A model generated the notes under the pieces. That model did not search any database. It saw only the letters and a program-made list of their open reading frames with translations, and was not told where the DNA came from. From an uncultured Muribaculaceae bacterium (GTDB lineage Bacteria > Bacteroidota > Bacteroidia > Bacteroidales > Muribaculaceae): a stretch of DNA of 35,471 nt. The stretch spans positions 1-35,471 of the forward strand of contig CAJOFH010000028.1 in assembly GCA_905233845.1 (NCBI GenBank). Direction: 5' to 3'. The translations under genes were made by a program, and so were the position numbers. Positions 9,822 through 34,679 of the stretch are shown here, one piece after another. Position 1 is the first letter of the stretch, and the number at the start of each line of letters is the position of its first letter.

Positions 9822-9904
9822 TTTTTTTCAACAAAATGTGTGTTTTTTTAAGTAAATACATGAAAATGAAAAAAATGATGTGTGATTGTTTCACCATTTT
9901 TTTG

Positions 9905-9912
9905 TACTTTTG
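9905..9912 (+). promoter_or_regulatory. -7 box of the C69 dipeptidase gene
   Basis: TACTTTTG matches TAnnTTTG and lies 22 bp before the ATG at 9935. This supports that ATG over an upstream in-frame one at 9836. The -33 element is poor. Confidence 0.5.
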
Positions 9913-9934
9913 CTGGCACATAAAAACAATATCT

Positions 9935-11563
9935 ATGAAACAGAGACTTTTATTATCATTAGCAATCTCGTTGGCTTTGATGCCGATGTTGGCGCAAGTA
10001 GACGAATCAACTCCCGAAGGTCGTGCAAGGCTTTCGTGTACAAGTATAATGGTGGGCAAGCGAGCAAGCACCGACGGCTCAGTAATGACCTCTCACACCT
10101 GTGACTCATGGTACCGCACCTGGATGACGATGACACCGGCACGTGACTATGAGCGCGACACGGTGACTGCCATCTACAAGGGGCGTATGCATACTCAGAG
10201 CGCAAGTGATAGCACAAAGATGTATGTGAAGGGCACGATACCGCAGGTGCGCCACACCTACCGCTATCTCGACACTGCCTATCCTTGCATGAACGAGAAA
10301 CAGGTAGCAATGGGTGAGACCACCATTGGCGGTCGTGACACCTTGCGCAACAAAGCGGGAATGTTCTATATCGAAGAGCTGGAACGTATCGCTCTTGAGC
10401 GTTGCTCCACGGCTCGTGATGCTATTGCCACGATGGGCAGCCTTGCCGAGAAGTATGGCTATGCCGACAGTGGCGAGTGCCTGACTGTTGCCGACCCTAA
10501 CGAGGTTTGGATTTTCGAGATTTTTGGTGCTGGTCCCAAGAAGATTGGTGCCGTGTGGGCAGCAGTGCGCATCCCCGACGACGAGATTGCAGTCTCGGCA
10601 AATATTTCGCGCATTGGCACCCTTGACCTTAAGGACACGGACCACTATATGGCATCGGCAAATGTCAAAGATGTTGCTAAGCAGCTCAAGCTGTGGGACG
10701 GCAAGGAGGAGTTCAACTTCTTCAAGGCCTATAGCGGTGAGAATTATTTCCATGAGAAGAAGAACTATAGTGTGCGCGAACATTATATTATGAACGCACT
10801 TGCACCGTCGCTGAATTTGAGCGACACCGTAGATTGTCTACCGCTAAGCATCAAACCCGACACGCTGGTGAGCCCTGAGCAAGTGATGCAGCTACTTGGC
10901 AGTTACTATGAAGGTACCGACAAGAACCTGAGCGGTCGCCACCTCATTCCCAATCCTAAGCGCAAGGACAAGATGGGCAACCTTGTGGAGAATGAGCCCG
11001 ACAGCATTGTTTCGCCTTATAGCAACCCATGGATGCGCCCCGACGAGATAAACATGTATTACGCCATGGGCGACTCGGCTATGAAGAACATTCGCACCGT
11101 GAGCGTGCCTTGGAGTGCCTACAGCACCGTCATACAGCTACGCTCATGGCTGCCCAACGAGATTGGCGGCGTAGCTTGGGTTGCCCTTGACAACCCAGGC
11201 GAAAGTCCACGATTCCCCATCTTTGCTGGAGCTACCGATTTACCTAAACTCCTGCAAATATGCGGACAGCATAGCGACCGCGACGATGCGGCCCTGTGGC
11301 ATTACCGCAAGGCCAACCGCCTCGCAACTGTGCGTTGGGGCACCTACCGCAAGATGTTGGAACCTTTGCGCGACTACTTTATGGAGAAAGGCCTGCGTGA
11401 GCTGCCTTATGTGGACCAGATGTGGCAAGATCTCAACAGCAGCGACCCAAAGAAGGCACAAGTGATGCTTAATGGCTACATCGCCGACTTCTTCGGAGCC
11501 ACCATCATCCGTTGGGACGAGCTCGCCCGCACCCTCTGGCGCCAGACCTGGACAGGGTTCTAA
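9935..11563 (+). CDS. C69-family dipeptidase, secreted
   Basis: A 542-residue peptidase of family C69 (PepD-like, N-terminal nucleophile hydrolases), expected to cleave dipeptides in the periplasm. The signal peptide is MKQRLLLSLAISLALMPMLA. The probable nucleophile is Cys35 in RARLSCTSIMVGKRAS, where processing exposes the cysteine in this family. It is followed by the family pattern STDGSVMTSHTCDSW. Other family segments are MGETTIGGRDTL, NPWMRPDEINMYYAMGDS and PWSAYSTVIQLRSWLP. The start was chosen for the signal peptide and the -7 box 22 bp upstream. The gene is probably monocistronic: metK has its own promoter 125 bp downstream. The family is confident; the in vivo substrate is unknown. 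Confidence 0.9.
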   Translation: MKQRLLLSLAISLALMPMLAQVDESTPEGRARLSCTSIMVGKRASTDGSVMTSHTCDSWYRTWMTMTPARDYERDTVTAIYKGRMHTQSASDSTKMYVKGTIPQVRHTYRYLDTAYPCMNEKQVAMGETTIGGRDTLRNKAGMFYIEELERIALERCSTARDAIATMGSLAEKYGYADSGECLTVADPNEVWIFEIFGAGPKKIGAVWAAVRIPDDEIAVSANISRIGTLDLKDTDHYMASANVKDVAKQLKLWDGKEEFNFFKAYSGENYFHEKKNYSVREHYIMNALAPSLNLSDTVDCLPLSIKPDTLVSPEQVMQLLGSYYEGTDKNLSGRHLIPNPKRKDKMGNLVENEPDSIVSPYSNPWMRPDEINMYYAMGDSAMKNIRTVSVPWSAYSTVIQLRSWLPNEIGGVAWVALDNPGESPRFPIFAGATDLPKLLQICGQHSDRDDAALWHYRKANRLATVRWGTYRKMLEPLRDYFMEKGLRELPYVDQMWQDLNSSDPKKAQVMLNGYIADFFGATIIRWDELARTLWRQTWTGF

Positions 11564-11687
11564 ACCCTATTCGCTCGATATGAACAACAACATTTTTTGA
11601 AAAGTTTTTGACTCTACAAAAGTTTTTGAAAAAAAGATGTTGGATTAATTCTTTGCGATTTTTGAGTGATATATTAAAAAAAAGTAT

Positions 11688-11695
11688 TACCTTTG
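11688..11695 (+). promoter_or_regulatory. -7 box of metK
   Basis: TACCTTTG fits TAnnTTTG. The context ATTAAAAAAAAGTATTACC, running into TTTGCAGCCGC, is almost identical to the sequence in front of tRNA-Pro at 34698-34705. TTTG at 11661-11664 is a possible -33 element, but at 23 bp. Transcription should begin near 11700, leaving a leader of about 160 nt. Confidence 0.65.
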
Positions 11696-11700
11696 CAGCC

Positions 11701-11865
11701 GCTATCGTGAAAGCGATGGCATGTTAAGGAATATAATTTATTAAACACAGTGGAAAAATTTGGCTGCTTGCAACCACTTGAAAAAATGCTAAAACTGCGA
11801 ATAATCCCTCAAATTTTTCACAGAATCTTAGCGTTTTTCCACATTAAAAACAATTTGGAAAAATG
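11701..11865 (+). promoter_or_regulatory. Structured metK leader, candidate cis-regulatory RNA
   Basis: The leader starts with a 7-bp hairpin (11701-11707 with 11714-11720, one G-U). Four further segments can pair in alternative ways. A (11750-11762, GTGGAAAAATTTG) pairs with B (11810-11821, CAAATTTTTCAC) over 12 bp with one bulged G. C (11834-11842, TTTTTCCAC) pairs perfectly with the start of A over 9 bp. C also pairs over 8 bp with D (11856-11863, TGGAAAAA), which includes the A of the metK ATG. D repeats part of A. A:B with C:D would bury the start codon, while A:C would free it. This is the logic of translational riboswitches, but no known SAM-riboswitch consensus is recognised here. Function is inferred. 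Confidence 0.5.
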
Positions 11866-13146
11866 AACTATTTGTTTACTAGTGAATCGGTGTCGGAAGG
11901 ACACCCCGACAAAGTTGCTGACCAGATTAGCGACGCGTTGCTCGACAATTTTCTGGCTTTTGACCCTCATAGCCGCGTAGCTTGTGAGACCCTTGTCACC
12001 ACTGGCCAGGTGGTGATTGCCGGCGAGGTGAAAAGTAAAACCTACATTGATCTGATGGAGGTAACTCGTCAAGTGATTAATAAAATTGGCTATAACAAGA
12101 GTGAGTACAAATTTGACGCTGAGTCTTGTGGCGTGTTCTCGGCAATCCATGAGCAAAGTGGTGACATCAACCGTGGCGTAGACCGCGCAACCAGCGAGGA
12201 GCAGGGCGCCGGCGACCAGGGCATGATGTTTGGCTTTGCTTGCAACGAGACTCCTAATTATATGCCATTGACTCTCGACCTTGCCCACCTGTTGCTGCGT
12301 GAGTTAGCGACCTTGCGCAAAGAAGGCGTGATACCTTATCTTCGCCCCGATGCCAAGAGTCAGGTGACAGTGGAGTATGATGATGATACTCACCGCCCAG
12401 TGCGCATTCACACCATCGTTATCAGCACTCAGCATGATGATTTCATCAAGGCAGAGGGCATCAGTCAGAAAGAGGCCGACGAGCAGATGCTACAGCGCAT
12501 CTATGACGACATGGAGACTATCTTGCTACCACGCGTAAAAGCAAAATTGCCCGATGAGGTGAAGCGTCTCTTTGACGACCAGCTCATCCTGCACGTGAAT
12601 CCCACTGGCAAATTTGTGATTGGTGGTCCTCATGGTGACACTGGCCTCACAGGTCGTAAAATCATTGTTGACACCTATGGTGGACGTGGTGCACATGGTG
12701 GTGGTGCCTTCAGTGGCAAGGATCCCAGTAAGGTAGACCGCAGTGCTGCTTATGCTGCTCGCCACATTGCCAAGAACGCAGTGGCTGCTGGCGTCGCCGA
12801 CGAGATGCTCGTGCAGGTGTCCTATGCCATTGGCGTTGCCGAGCCCATCAGCATCTACGTCAACACCTTCGGTACTAGCCATGTGGAAAAGAGTGATGCC
12901 GAGATTGCCAAGATTCTGAATGACACTTTCAAGATGACACCCTATGCCATCGAGAAGCGTTTGAAATTGCGCAACCCCATATATCAGGAGACGGCATCAT
13001 ACGGCCACATGGGTCGCGAACCAAAGGTCATCACCAAGACCTTCAACTCGCTCTATGAAGGCGAGCGAACCATCGAAGTAGAACTCTTCACCTGGGAAAA
13101 ACTCGACTACGTAGACACCCTCAAGAAAGCTTTCGGCATCGATTAA
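11863..13146 (+). CDS. metK: S-adenosylmethionine synthetase
   Basis: Makes S-adenosylmethionine from methionine and ATP, releasing phosphate and diphosphate; cytoplasmic, normally a tetramer. The 427 residues carry all the classic blocks: [18 protein letters not shown] at the N-terminus (His and Asp of the ATP/Mg site), the [17 protein letters not shown] hexapeptide block near residue 116, and the phosphate loop [25 protein letters not shown]. Length is near the usual 380-430. It has its own promoter and an unusual 160-nt structured leader, and is followed by a 16-bp-stem hairpin. No methionine-cycle gene is adjacent. Identification is secure. Confidence 0.97.
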
Positions 13147-13243: not shown

Positions 13244-13840
13244 ATGTTGCAACGATATTTACAAGAGGGTCGCGTTGAGGCAGGATGTGATGAGGCTGGG
13301 CGTGGATGCCTAGCAGGGCCCGTAACAGCTGCTGCCGTGATATTGCCGCCCGACTTTGAAAACGAGCTACTTAACGACAGTAAGCAACTCTCTGAACATC
13401 AACGCGACTTGCTGCGTCCCGTAATAGAGCGTGAGGCTTTGGCGTGGGCTGTGGCAATGGTGTCGCCGCAGGAGATTGACCGCATCAACATCCTCAAGGC
13501 GTCAATCACCGCCATGCACCGCGCCCTTGACCAACTAACGATACGCCCTGAGCACATCCTTGTCGACGGCAACCGCTTTTATCCTTACGGCGACACTCCT
13601 TTTACCACGGTTATCAAAGGCGACGGCAAGATGATGTGCATCGCAGCTGCGTCGGTCCTCGCCAAGACTCACCGTGACGAGTATATGCGAAAGATTGCTG
13701 AAGAATTCCCTCAATACAATTGGGCAAAAAACAAAGGTTACCCTACAAAAGACCACCGGGCCGCCATCGTGGCACACGGCATCAGTCCCTACCACCGCAA
13801 GAGCTTCAACCTTGTAGGGCAGCTGTCGCTGTTTGACTAA
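13244..13840 (+). CDS. rnhB: Ribonuclease HII
   Basis: Removes RNA from RNA-DNA hybrids, including single misincorporated ribonucleotides. The 198 residues are typical. The catalytic motif GCDEAGRGCLAGPVTAAAV gives Asp16 and Glu17. A further acidic residue lies in HILVDGNRF, and the KGDGKMMCIAAASVLAKTHRDEYM block completes the active site. The C-terminus NKGYPTKDHRAAIVAHGISPYHRKSF is also family-typical. It lies downstream of metK on the same strand, separated by the hairpin at 13155-13192. Its stop codon overlaps the stop of the convergent ATPase gene by 4 bp. Confidence 0.95.
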   Translation: MLQRYLQEGRVEAGCDEAGRGCLAGPVTAAAVILPPDFENELLNDSKQLSEHQRDLLRPVIEREALAWAVAMVSPQEIDRINILKASITAMHRALDQLTIRPEHILVDGNRFYPYGDTPFTTVIKGDGKMMCIAAASVLAKTHRDEYMRKIAEEFPQYNWAKNKGYPTKDHRAAIVAHGISPYHRKSFNLVGQLSLFD

Positions 13841-34595: not shown

Positions 34596-34605
34596 AAAGC
34601 ATTAG

Positions 34606-34679
34606 TCGGGGTGAGAAGACTCGAACTTCCGGCCTCCACGTCCCGAACGTGGCGCGCTAACCAACTGTGCTACACCCCG
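34606..34679 (-). tRNA. tRNA-Pro (anticodon CGG)
   Basis: A 74-nt cloverleaf. The acceptor arms CGGGGTG and CACCCCG pair fully, with discriminator A. The anticodon stem CCACG/CGTGG carries the loop TTCGGGA, giving anticodon CGG for CCG codons. The T-arm contains GTTCGAGTC. CCA is not encoded. The C1 start fits proline tRNAs. It is flanked by a -7 box and a terminator, so it is a single-gene unit. Confidence 0.95.

Follow-up and report, generated by a model that had tools for sequence, protein, structure and literature searches.

The leader of metK described here is probably a SAM-II riboswitch that acts as a translational OFF switch on the start codon itself. It lies in a stretch of 35,471 nucleotides from an uncultured Muribaculaceae bacterium (GenBank assembly GCA_905233845.1, contig CAJOFH010000028.1), which we refer to as the window and whose relevant features are collected in Table 1. 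The aptamer, metK, a conserved helix between a strand C and the start region D with matched changes on its two sides, and a conserved complementarity between C and the aptamer can be read from the sequences; from these we infer the switching.

Table 1. Features of the metK leader, in coordinates of the window
Feature	Position	Strand	Remarks
TACCTTTG, Bacteroidetes -7 element TAnnTTTG	11688..11695	+	exact match; predicted transcription start about 11700
8-bp hairpin at the predicted transcript 5′ end	11701..11720	+	minimum-energy fold of 11701-11902
SAM-II (long loop) riboswitch aptamer, Rfam RF01726	11744..11802	+	cmscan 62.8 bits, gathering score 44
P1 5′ strand AGUGG	11749..11753	+	pairs with 11774-11778; segment A runs from here into loop 1
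P1 3′ strand CCACU	11774..11778	+	from the RF01726 alignment and the helix list; P1 is 5 bp
Aptamer 3′ strand AAAAAUGCUAA	11782..11792	+	alternative partner is C (11828-11838), 11-bp helix
Local hairpin CUG.GAA...UUC.CAG, contains B	11795..11823	+	between aptamer and C; fold z -2.5
C, shuttle strand UUAGCGUUUUUCCAC	11828..11842	+	partners: aptamer 3′ strand, A, or D
D, start region UGGAAAAAUG including AUG	11856..11865	+	10 bp with 11832-11841
metK, methionine adenosyltransferase (SAM synthetase), 427 aa	11863..13146	+	NCBIfam TIGR01034, 521.2 bits against a cut-off of 309.4

A SAM-II aptamer in the metK leader

The original prediction had described four segments before and at the metK start, A to D, that pair in mutually exclusive ways; it recognised no known SAM-riboswitch core, considered a new Bacteroidales element or a protein-controlled leader, and proposed a scan with the Rfam SAM models. 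That scan ran contrary to the reading of an unknown core, which was wrong: RF01726 matched above its gathering score (62.8 against 44 bits, with an E-value of 5.6e-10 for the window) and over its full length, model positions 1-60 of 60. The P1 stem, the conserved loop and the GCUAAA segment are all present in the alignment, and no non-standard pairs are marked in it. Because the match runs from end to end, the sensing part is neither a new element nor a protein-controlled one; by its sequence, the sensor of the metK leader is a SAM-II riboswitch aptamer, a known class. The P2 pseudoknot is absent from the RF01726 model, and a possible consensus pairing of loop CUG with tail CAG is not kept in the window, where the tail reads CUG. 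The SAM-alpha model RF00521 reached 19.4 bits at the metK leader, below its gathering score of 36, and the eight further matches to other Rfam families between 11301 and 12100 each fell below their cut-offs.

The genome of the window holds one SAM-II match. Of the genomes examined, 95 of 101 from the genus, 188 of 198 sampled across the family and 129 of 198 sampled across the order have such a match. The closest named record among the matches listed, a listing from which records very near the window may have been left out, is a rumen Muribaculaceae metagenome bin (L159) whose MetK is 82% identical.

Since TACCTTTG fits the consensus given for the Bacteroidetes -7 element (TAnnTTTG, in passages of PMC7366714), the predicted transcription start lies near 11700, before the aptamer. 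All 92 leaders examined carry the element no more than 110 nt before P1, with 10.2 expected from shuffles, at a distance from P1 of 14-84 nt (median 31), and a sigma-70-like site within the leader (11778-11805) is at chance level (one found, 1.1 expected). A transcription start downstream of segment A, which the original prediction had named as a refutation, did not come to light; the metK transcript likely starts near 11700, upstream of both the aptamer and segment A. Three TTTTTGA-like words (ATTTTTTGA, GTTTTTGA, GTTTTTGA) stand at 11592-11629, upstream of the predicted promoter.

The gene upstream of metK (9836-11563) resembles a C69-family dipeptidase (191.2 bits, under the curated cut-off of 250), the gene after it (13244-13840) is ribonuclease HII, and a tRNA-Pro (CGG) gene lies at 34605-34679 on the minus strand of the window. 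In a set of 303 ORFs from the window and twenty stretches of the same genome (metK included; starts taken as the longest ATG frames, some of which may be wrong), start regions are A-rich, and a Shine-Dalgarno-like motif occurs in 13.

A conserved helix between C and the start region

Leaders came from every genus genome that has a match (95 genomes, 93 distinct leaders) and, in the family, from 131 of the 188 matching genomes. For the run-length counts, 92 distinct leaders were assigned to the genus; the 135 others include one genus leader that is identical to a named record. The 5′ half of C, TTAGC[AG], is found in the linker of 84 of the 92 genus leaders, where mononucleotide shuffling leads one to expect 3.4, and is missing in the other eight; it is found in 19 of the 135 others. 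The extended motif TTAGC[AG]T is present in 85 of 93 genus leaders and 13 of 113 leaders from other genera, named records left out. Two types of C can be distinguished: type 1, that of the window, in 52 leaders (38 from the genus), and type 2, UUAGC followed by GUUCAU or a close variant, in 40 leaders, all from the genus. As MAFFT split the C block in the alignment, counting relied on ungapped blocks, with TTAGC and the ATG as anchor points.

From the register and permutation tests, 11 rows were left out by hand; the same rows were not excluded by name from the run-length and accessibility tests. They are L001, which is identical to the window; L055, L077, L186, L199 and L211, which lie outside the genus and have TTAGC without a C-like block after it; and five genus leaders with TTAGC (L109, L148, L261, L266 and L269) whose C either lies far from the ATG or shows no obvious match to the start region, and which count against a fully conserved C:D.

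In the window, C:D reaches -9.6 kcal/mol and covers the entire AUG; the helix had been predicted correctly, with 8 bp instead of its actual 10. Across the 52 type 1 leaders, 96.9% of the 520 cells of this ungapped 10-bp register pair, against 30.4-66.3% in registers slid by -5 to +6. When D was permuted among leaders, 0 of 1000 permutations reached the observed 96.9% (mean 90.2, maximum 92.9), and the C:D duplex energy was -12.37 with the leader's own partner versus -10.10 with swapped ones (0/300). Changes on both sides are seen in four of the ten pairs, a number that the register shifted by -4 also gives.

The two strands match in run length as well. Among the 103 leaders with TTAGC[AG], 50 could be scored strictly (the remainder are mostly of the second C type), and in all 50 the run of U in C is as long as the run of A before UG in D, at a length of four in 10 leaders, five in 37 and six in 3. 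Under loose scoring, L153 has seven U in C versus six A in D. The aptamer's own A-run does not track these lengths (L258 and L013 are examples), and hence it is D that C follows. The exact 5-run pattern was confined to the window's own genome among 393 order genomes drawn, a draw that held no other genus member and five other family members; in the run-length counts it is present in other members of genus and family.

In type 2 leaders, the partner of GUUCAU is AUGAAC, in a register displaced by four columns, where 70.2% of cells pair against 24.8-56.2% in other registers; the energy was -8.97 with own and -8.33 with swapped partners (0/300), and AUGAAC is missing in 5 of the 40. L244 carries a joint change, C reading CGUUUUCAAUU and the start region AAUUGAAACG, in a helix with one bulge that ends just before the AUG. 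On a metK tree of 92 rows, the C state changes 10 times and the D state 11 times, and the GUUCAU type stands in two separate places. Independent co-changes of run length number three on supported branches (four to six on the best tree), all of them concordant; three are too few for a significant sign test.

The compensatory changes on which the original prediction had staked segments A to D were found, in C:D. As expected of a start-codon sequestor, C:D is conserved and co-varies, spans the AUG and uses nucleotides that also take part in the aptamer-pairing state; its independent changes are few.

In a subgroup with diverged aptamers (L276, L279, L283, L286, L287, L291 and L292), C has a further possible partner close by, a AAAATGAA(T/C) copy that is followed by a T-run. 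It looks possible that this copy with its T-run is a decoy start region or a weak terminator.

Pairing of C with the aptamer

C is also complementary to the aptamer: in the window, its first 11 nucleotides can pair with the aptamer 3′ strand at -9.1 kcal/mol, a helix absent from the original list. Complementarity to the aptamer 3′ strand extends over at least 10 bp in 52 of 52 type 1 leaders and over 8 bp in 40 of 40 type 2 leaders, about six of these pairs being set beforehand by the selection of C through TTAGC[AG]. As the aptamer 3′ strand hardly varies, C:aptamer rests on conservation, and on that measure this strand is C's principal partner in the anti-aptamer state. In many relatives, C approximates the reverse complement of GUGGAAAAAUGCUAAA, a composite of segments from both strands of the aptamer; the GGAAAAAU part of GUGGAAAAAUGCUAAA recurs in D. 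The local hairpin between aptamer and C has a median z of -2.18 over 92 leaders, 62 of which lie below -1.5.

Predicted switching at the start codon

We propose that at low SAM, C would pair with the aptamer 3′ strand, and could also take the 5′ strand, in a long hairpin over the local hairpin at 11795-11823; the AUG would then be at least partly free and MetK would be made. At high SAM, the ligand would hold the aptamer in its own fold and release C, which would pair with UGGAAAAAUG over 10 bp and block initiation. SAM synthesis would in this way be repressed by feedback at the level of translation. Because C is transcribed before D, its first available partner would be the aptamer, so that the ON state would be favoured without SAM. 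The translational switch that the original prediction had placed on metK is likely in its general form, with C pairing either with the domain that contains A (open) or with the start codon (closed). Its closed state, A:B plus C:D, gives way to a folded aptamer plus C:D, because segment A lies inside the aptamer, as P1 5′ strand and loop 1.

When 85 genus leaders were folded, the mean unpaired value for the AUG was 0.38 with a free aptamer and 0.12 with a masked one, masking being a crude stand-in for ligand binding; shuffled linkers gave 0.41 and 0.36, respectively. The natural drop in AUG access was larger than the mean shuffled drop in 63 of the 85 leaders, and in 41 it surpassed 24 or all 25 of the leader's own shuffles. 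For the window, the value was 0.56 with the aptamer free and 0.015 with it masked; in the transcript 11701-11902, the three AUG bases went from 0.76, 0.33 and 0.26 to 0.13, 0.05 and 0.10 (about 0.45 to 0.09).

These folds also bear on an alternative in which the aptamer is real but SAM acts otherwise, C:D forming constitutively as a hairpin that reduces translation of metK or shields the mRNA. C:D follows the start region whatever segment A is, and part of it (7 bp) persists in the free fold of the window, both of which suit such a hairpin; yet a constitutive hairpin needs no complementarity between C and the aptamer, which is kept in the 92 leaders tested, and the mean predicted change in access is larger than with shuffled linkers. 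We regard it as unlikely and prefer the translational OFF switch.

Other apparent outputs in the family and the order

When leaders were sorted by output class (named records left out, the terminator-like class assigned by a simple script), the 93 genus leaders comprised 85 with a C block, one with the aptamer at most 25 nt from the ATG, three terminator-like and four with none of these; the 113 leaders from other genera of the family comprised 13, 10, 49 and 41, respectively. The terminator-like leaders, which lack a C block, are in line with a SAM-II riboswitch acting by transcription termination, in which SAM binding would let a terminator form before metK, and most SAM-II riboswitches are described as transcriptional in passages of PMC6061858 and, for alpha- and beta-Proteobacteria, of PMC2258182. 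Against termination in the window, a consensus scan of the + strand from 11560 to 11960 gave no terminator-like site, and C tracks the start region. The transcriptional platform was rejected for the window, no intrinsic terminator having been found between aptamer and gene, and we hold this mode of action to be quite improbable there. The simple script also gave a terminator-like score in 11 of 98 C-block leaders.

GCUAAA begins 6 to 23 nt before the ATG of metK, without a C strand, in L088, L118, L122, L131, L268 and six others; L097 reads the same as L088 there, and in L268 GCUAAA is followed directly by AUG. By their layout, these leaders look like cases of direct start-codon occlusion by the aptamer.

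In the wider order, CAATC occurs in 18 of 21 linkers of GATTG-loop aptamers, with 2.4 expected, and is often followed by pyrimidine-rich TTCC; L303, L307, L311, L325 and L326 are examples. CAATC looks like another anti-aptamer strand, and metK SAM-II leaders of the order may commonly carry such a strand. Outside the GATTG class the linker follows the loop weakly, CAGTC being found with 4 of 18 GACTG, 5 of 22 GGCTG and 3 of 21 GATTG loops in a table that leaves out the 45 of 106 distinct leaders whose loop the pattern did not class. Among 55 wider-order and named-record leaders, some of them identical stretches, pairing was exceptional (at most 2 of 200 shuffles) for linker:start in four and for linker:A in eight, and the two best segments overlapped by at least 5 nt in 30, with 20.4 expected.

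Pairings of segments A and B, and the role of chance

All four pairings of the original prediction, A:B, A:C, C:D and B:D, are present in the sequence of the window. A:B is an 11-bp helix there (11753-11763 with 11809-11819, -8.4 kcal/mol); it is unbroken in the window only, 1 of 52 leaders, and has at most 9 bp in the other 51, so that it is not conserved and was rejected as part of the closed state. B:D has the roughly 7 bp claimed for it but is weak, at -2.5 to -2.8 kcal/mol, and was rejected. A:C comprises 10 bp including one G-U (11750-11759 with 11833-11842, -10.4 kcal/mol). As the main anti-aptamer helix of type 1 leaders it was rejected, showing no co-variation (own -10.83, swapped -10.78, 33/300); we keep it as possible because it has 10 bp in 35 of 52 leaders and a co-variation signal in type 2 C (0/300). 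A model that does without a known aptamer, in which segments A to D are closed by A:B plus C:D, possibly under protein control, can point to the 11 bp of A:B in the window; the RF01726 match, the place of segment A within the aptamer and the broken A:B of the other 51 leaders make it very improbable.

The original prediction had itself cautioned that chance pairing must be excluded in segments so rich in A/T. Of 200 dinucleotide shuffles of the window linker, four reached the energy of pairing with the start region, one that with the aptamer 3′ strand and three that with A. At most 2 of 200 shuffles did so in 20 (start region), 44 (aptamer 3′ strand) and 28 (A) of 73 genus leaders, and single leaders are therefore often not exceptional; for 135 leaders outside the genus, 125 of them with a linker long enough, the counts were 10 (start), 17 (3′ strand) and 16 (5′ strand). 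When the 303 ORFs are ranked by how stably an upstream segment can pair with the start region, metK comes second, and in eight of them this pairing is at least 10 bp long. That every pairing beyond the aptamer is chance in A/T-rich DNA, a view for which the four shuffles and the eight ORFs speak, is contradicted by the register specificity and the matching run lengths across relatives and deserves almost no credence. Since relatives keep C:D and C:aptamer, these two pairings go beyond chance, whereas chance may account for A:B and B:D.

Discussion

A known riboswitch class joined to an output domain directed at the start codon is well supported by the comparison of leaders, and no description of this output domain was found in the titles and abstracts of the open-access papers listed. 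According to passages of the papers cited, RF01726 is listed as "SAM-II long loops" from Bacteroidetes and marine samples (PMC2864571), a few SAM-II cases occur in the Bacteroides group, with terminators in many representatives (PMC1273637), the majority of SAM-II riboswitches are transcriptional, with metX a rare translational case (PMC6061858), and riboswitch output domains have been classified (PMC2258182); the term SAM-II is absent from the available part of PMC12121620. It is an evenly balanced question, in our judgement, whether in this lineage, which hardly uses Shine-Dalgarno sequences, SAM-II evolved a start-codon output through a shuttle strand complementary to both aptamer and start region and re-tuned along with the start region, relatives having terminators or an aptamer directly before the AUG.

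Translational control by riboswitches in mRNAs without a Shine-Dalgarno sequence is little described in the literature found. The family offers a natural series in which one aptamer and one gene are combined with apparently three outputs, namely a start-codon sequestor, direct occlusion and a terminator-like element. The paired changes make the start-codon helix directly testable, and the leader could provide a compact native SAM-responsive translational part for Bacteroidota.

The window shares with the RF01726 long-loop riboswitches an aptamer that matches from end to end and a position upstream of a gene of SAM metabolism; it differs in its output domain, which the main text of PMC2864571, as available, does not describe. 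Like the SAM-II riboswitch of Sinorhizobium meliloti metA, for which passages of PMC9373788 propose translational control through a Shine-Dalgarno sequence within the riboswitch, it has a SAM-II aptamer proposed to repress translation. In metA, however, the P2 pseudoknot hides the Shine-Dalgarno sequence, whereas in the window a separate strand outside the aptamer would hide the start codon. The translational SAM-II case treated in PMC6061858 is likewise an OFF switch with a pseudoknot fold; there, in the passages available, the folded aptamer occludes the Shine-Dalgarno sequence directly, without an anti-aptamer strand, and the 11 leaders of the family with the aptamer at most 25 nt from the ATG are nearer to that case than the window is. 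With the sequestor/anti-sequestor platforms of PMC2258182, the window has in common that mutually exclusive pairing would decide ribosome access; the usual target of those platforms, as the accessible text has it, is the ribosome-binding site, whereas in the window it would be the whole AUG together with the A-run.
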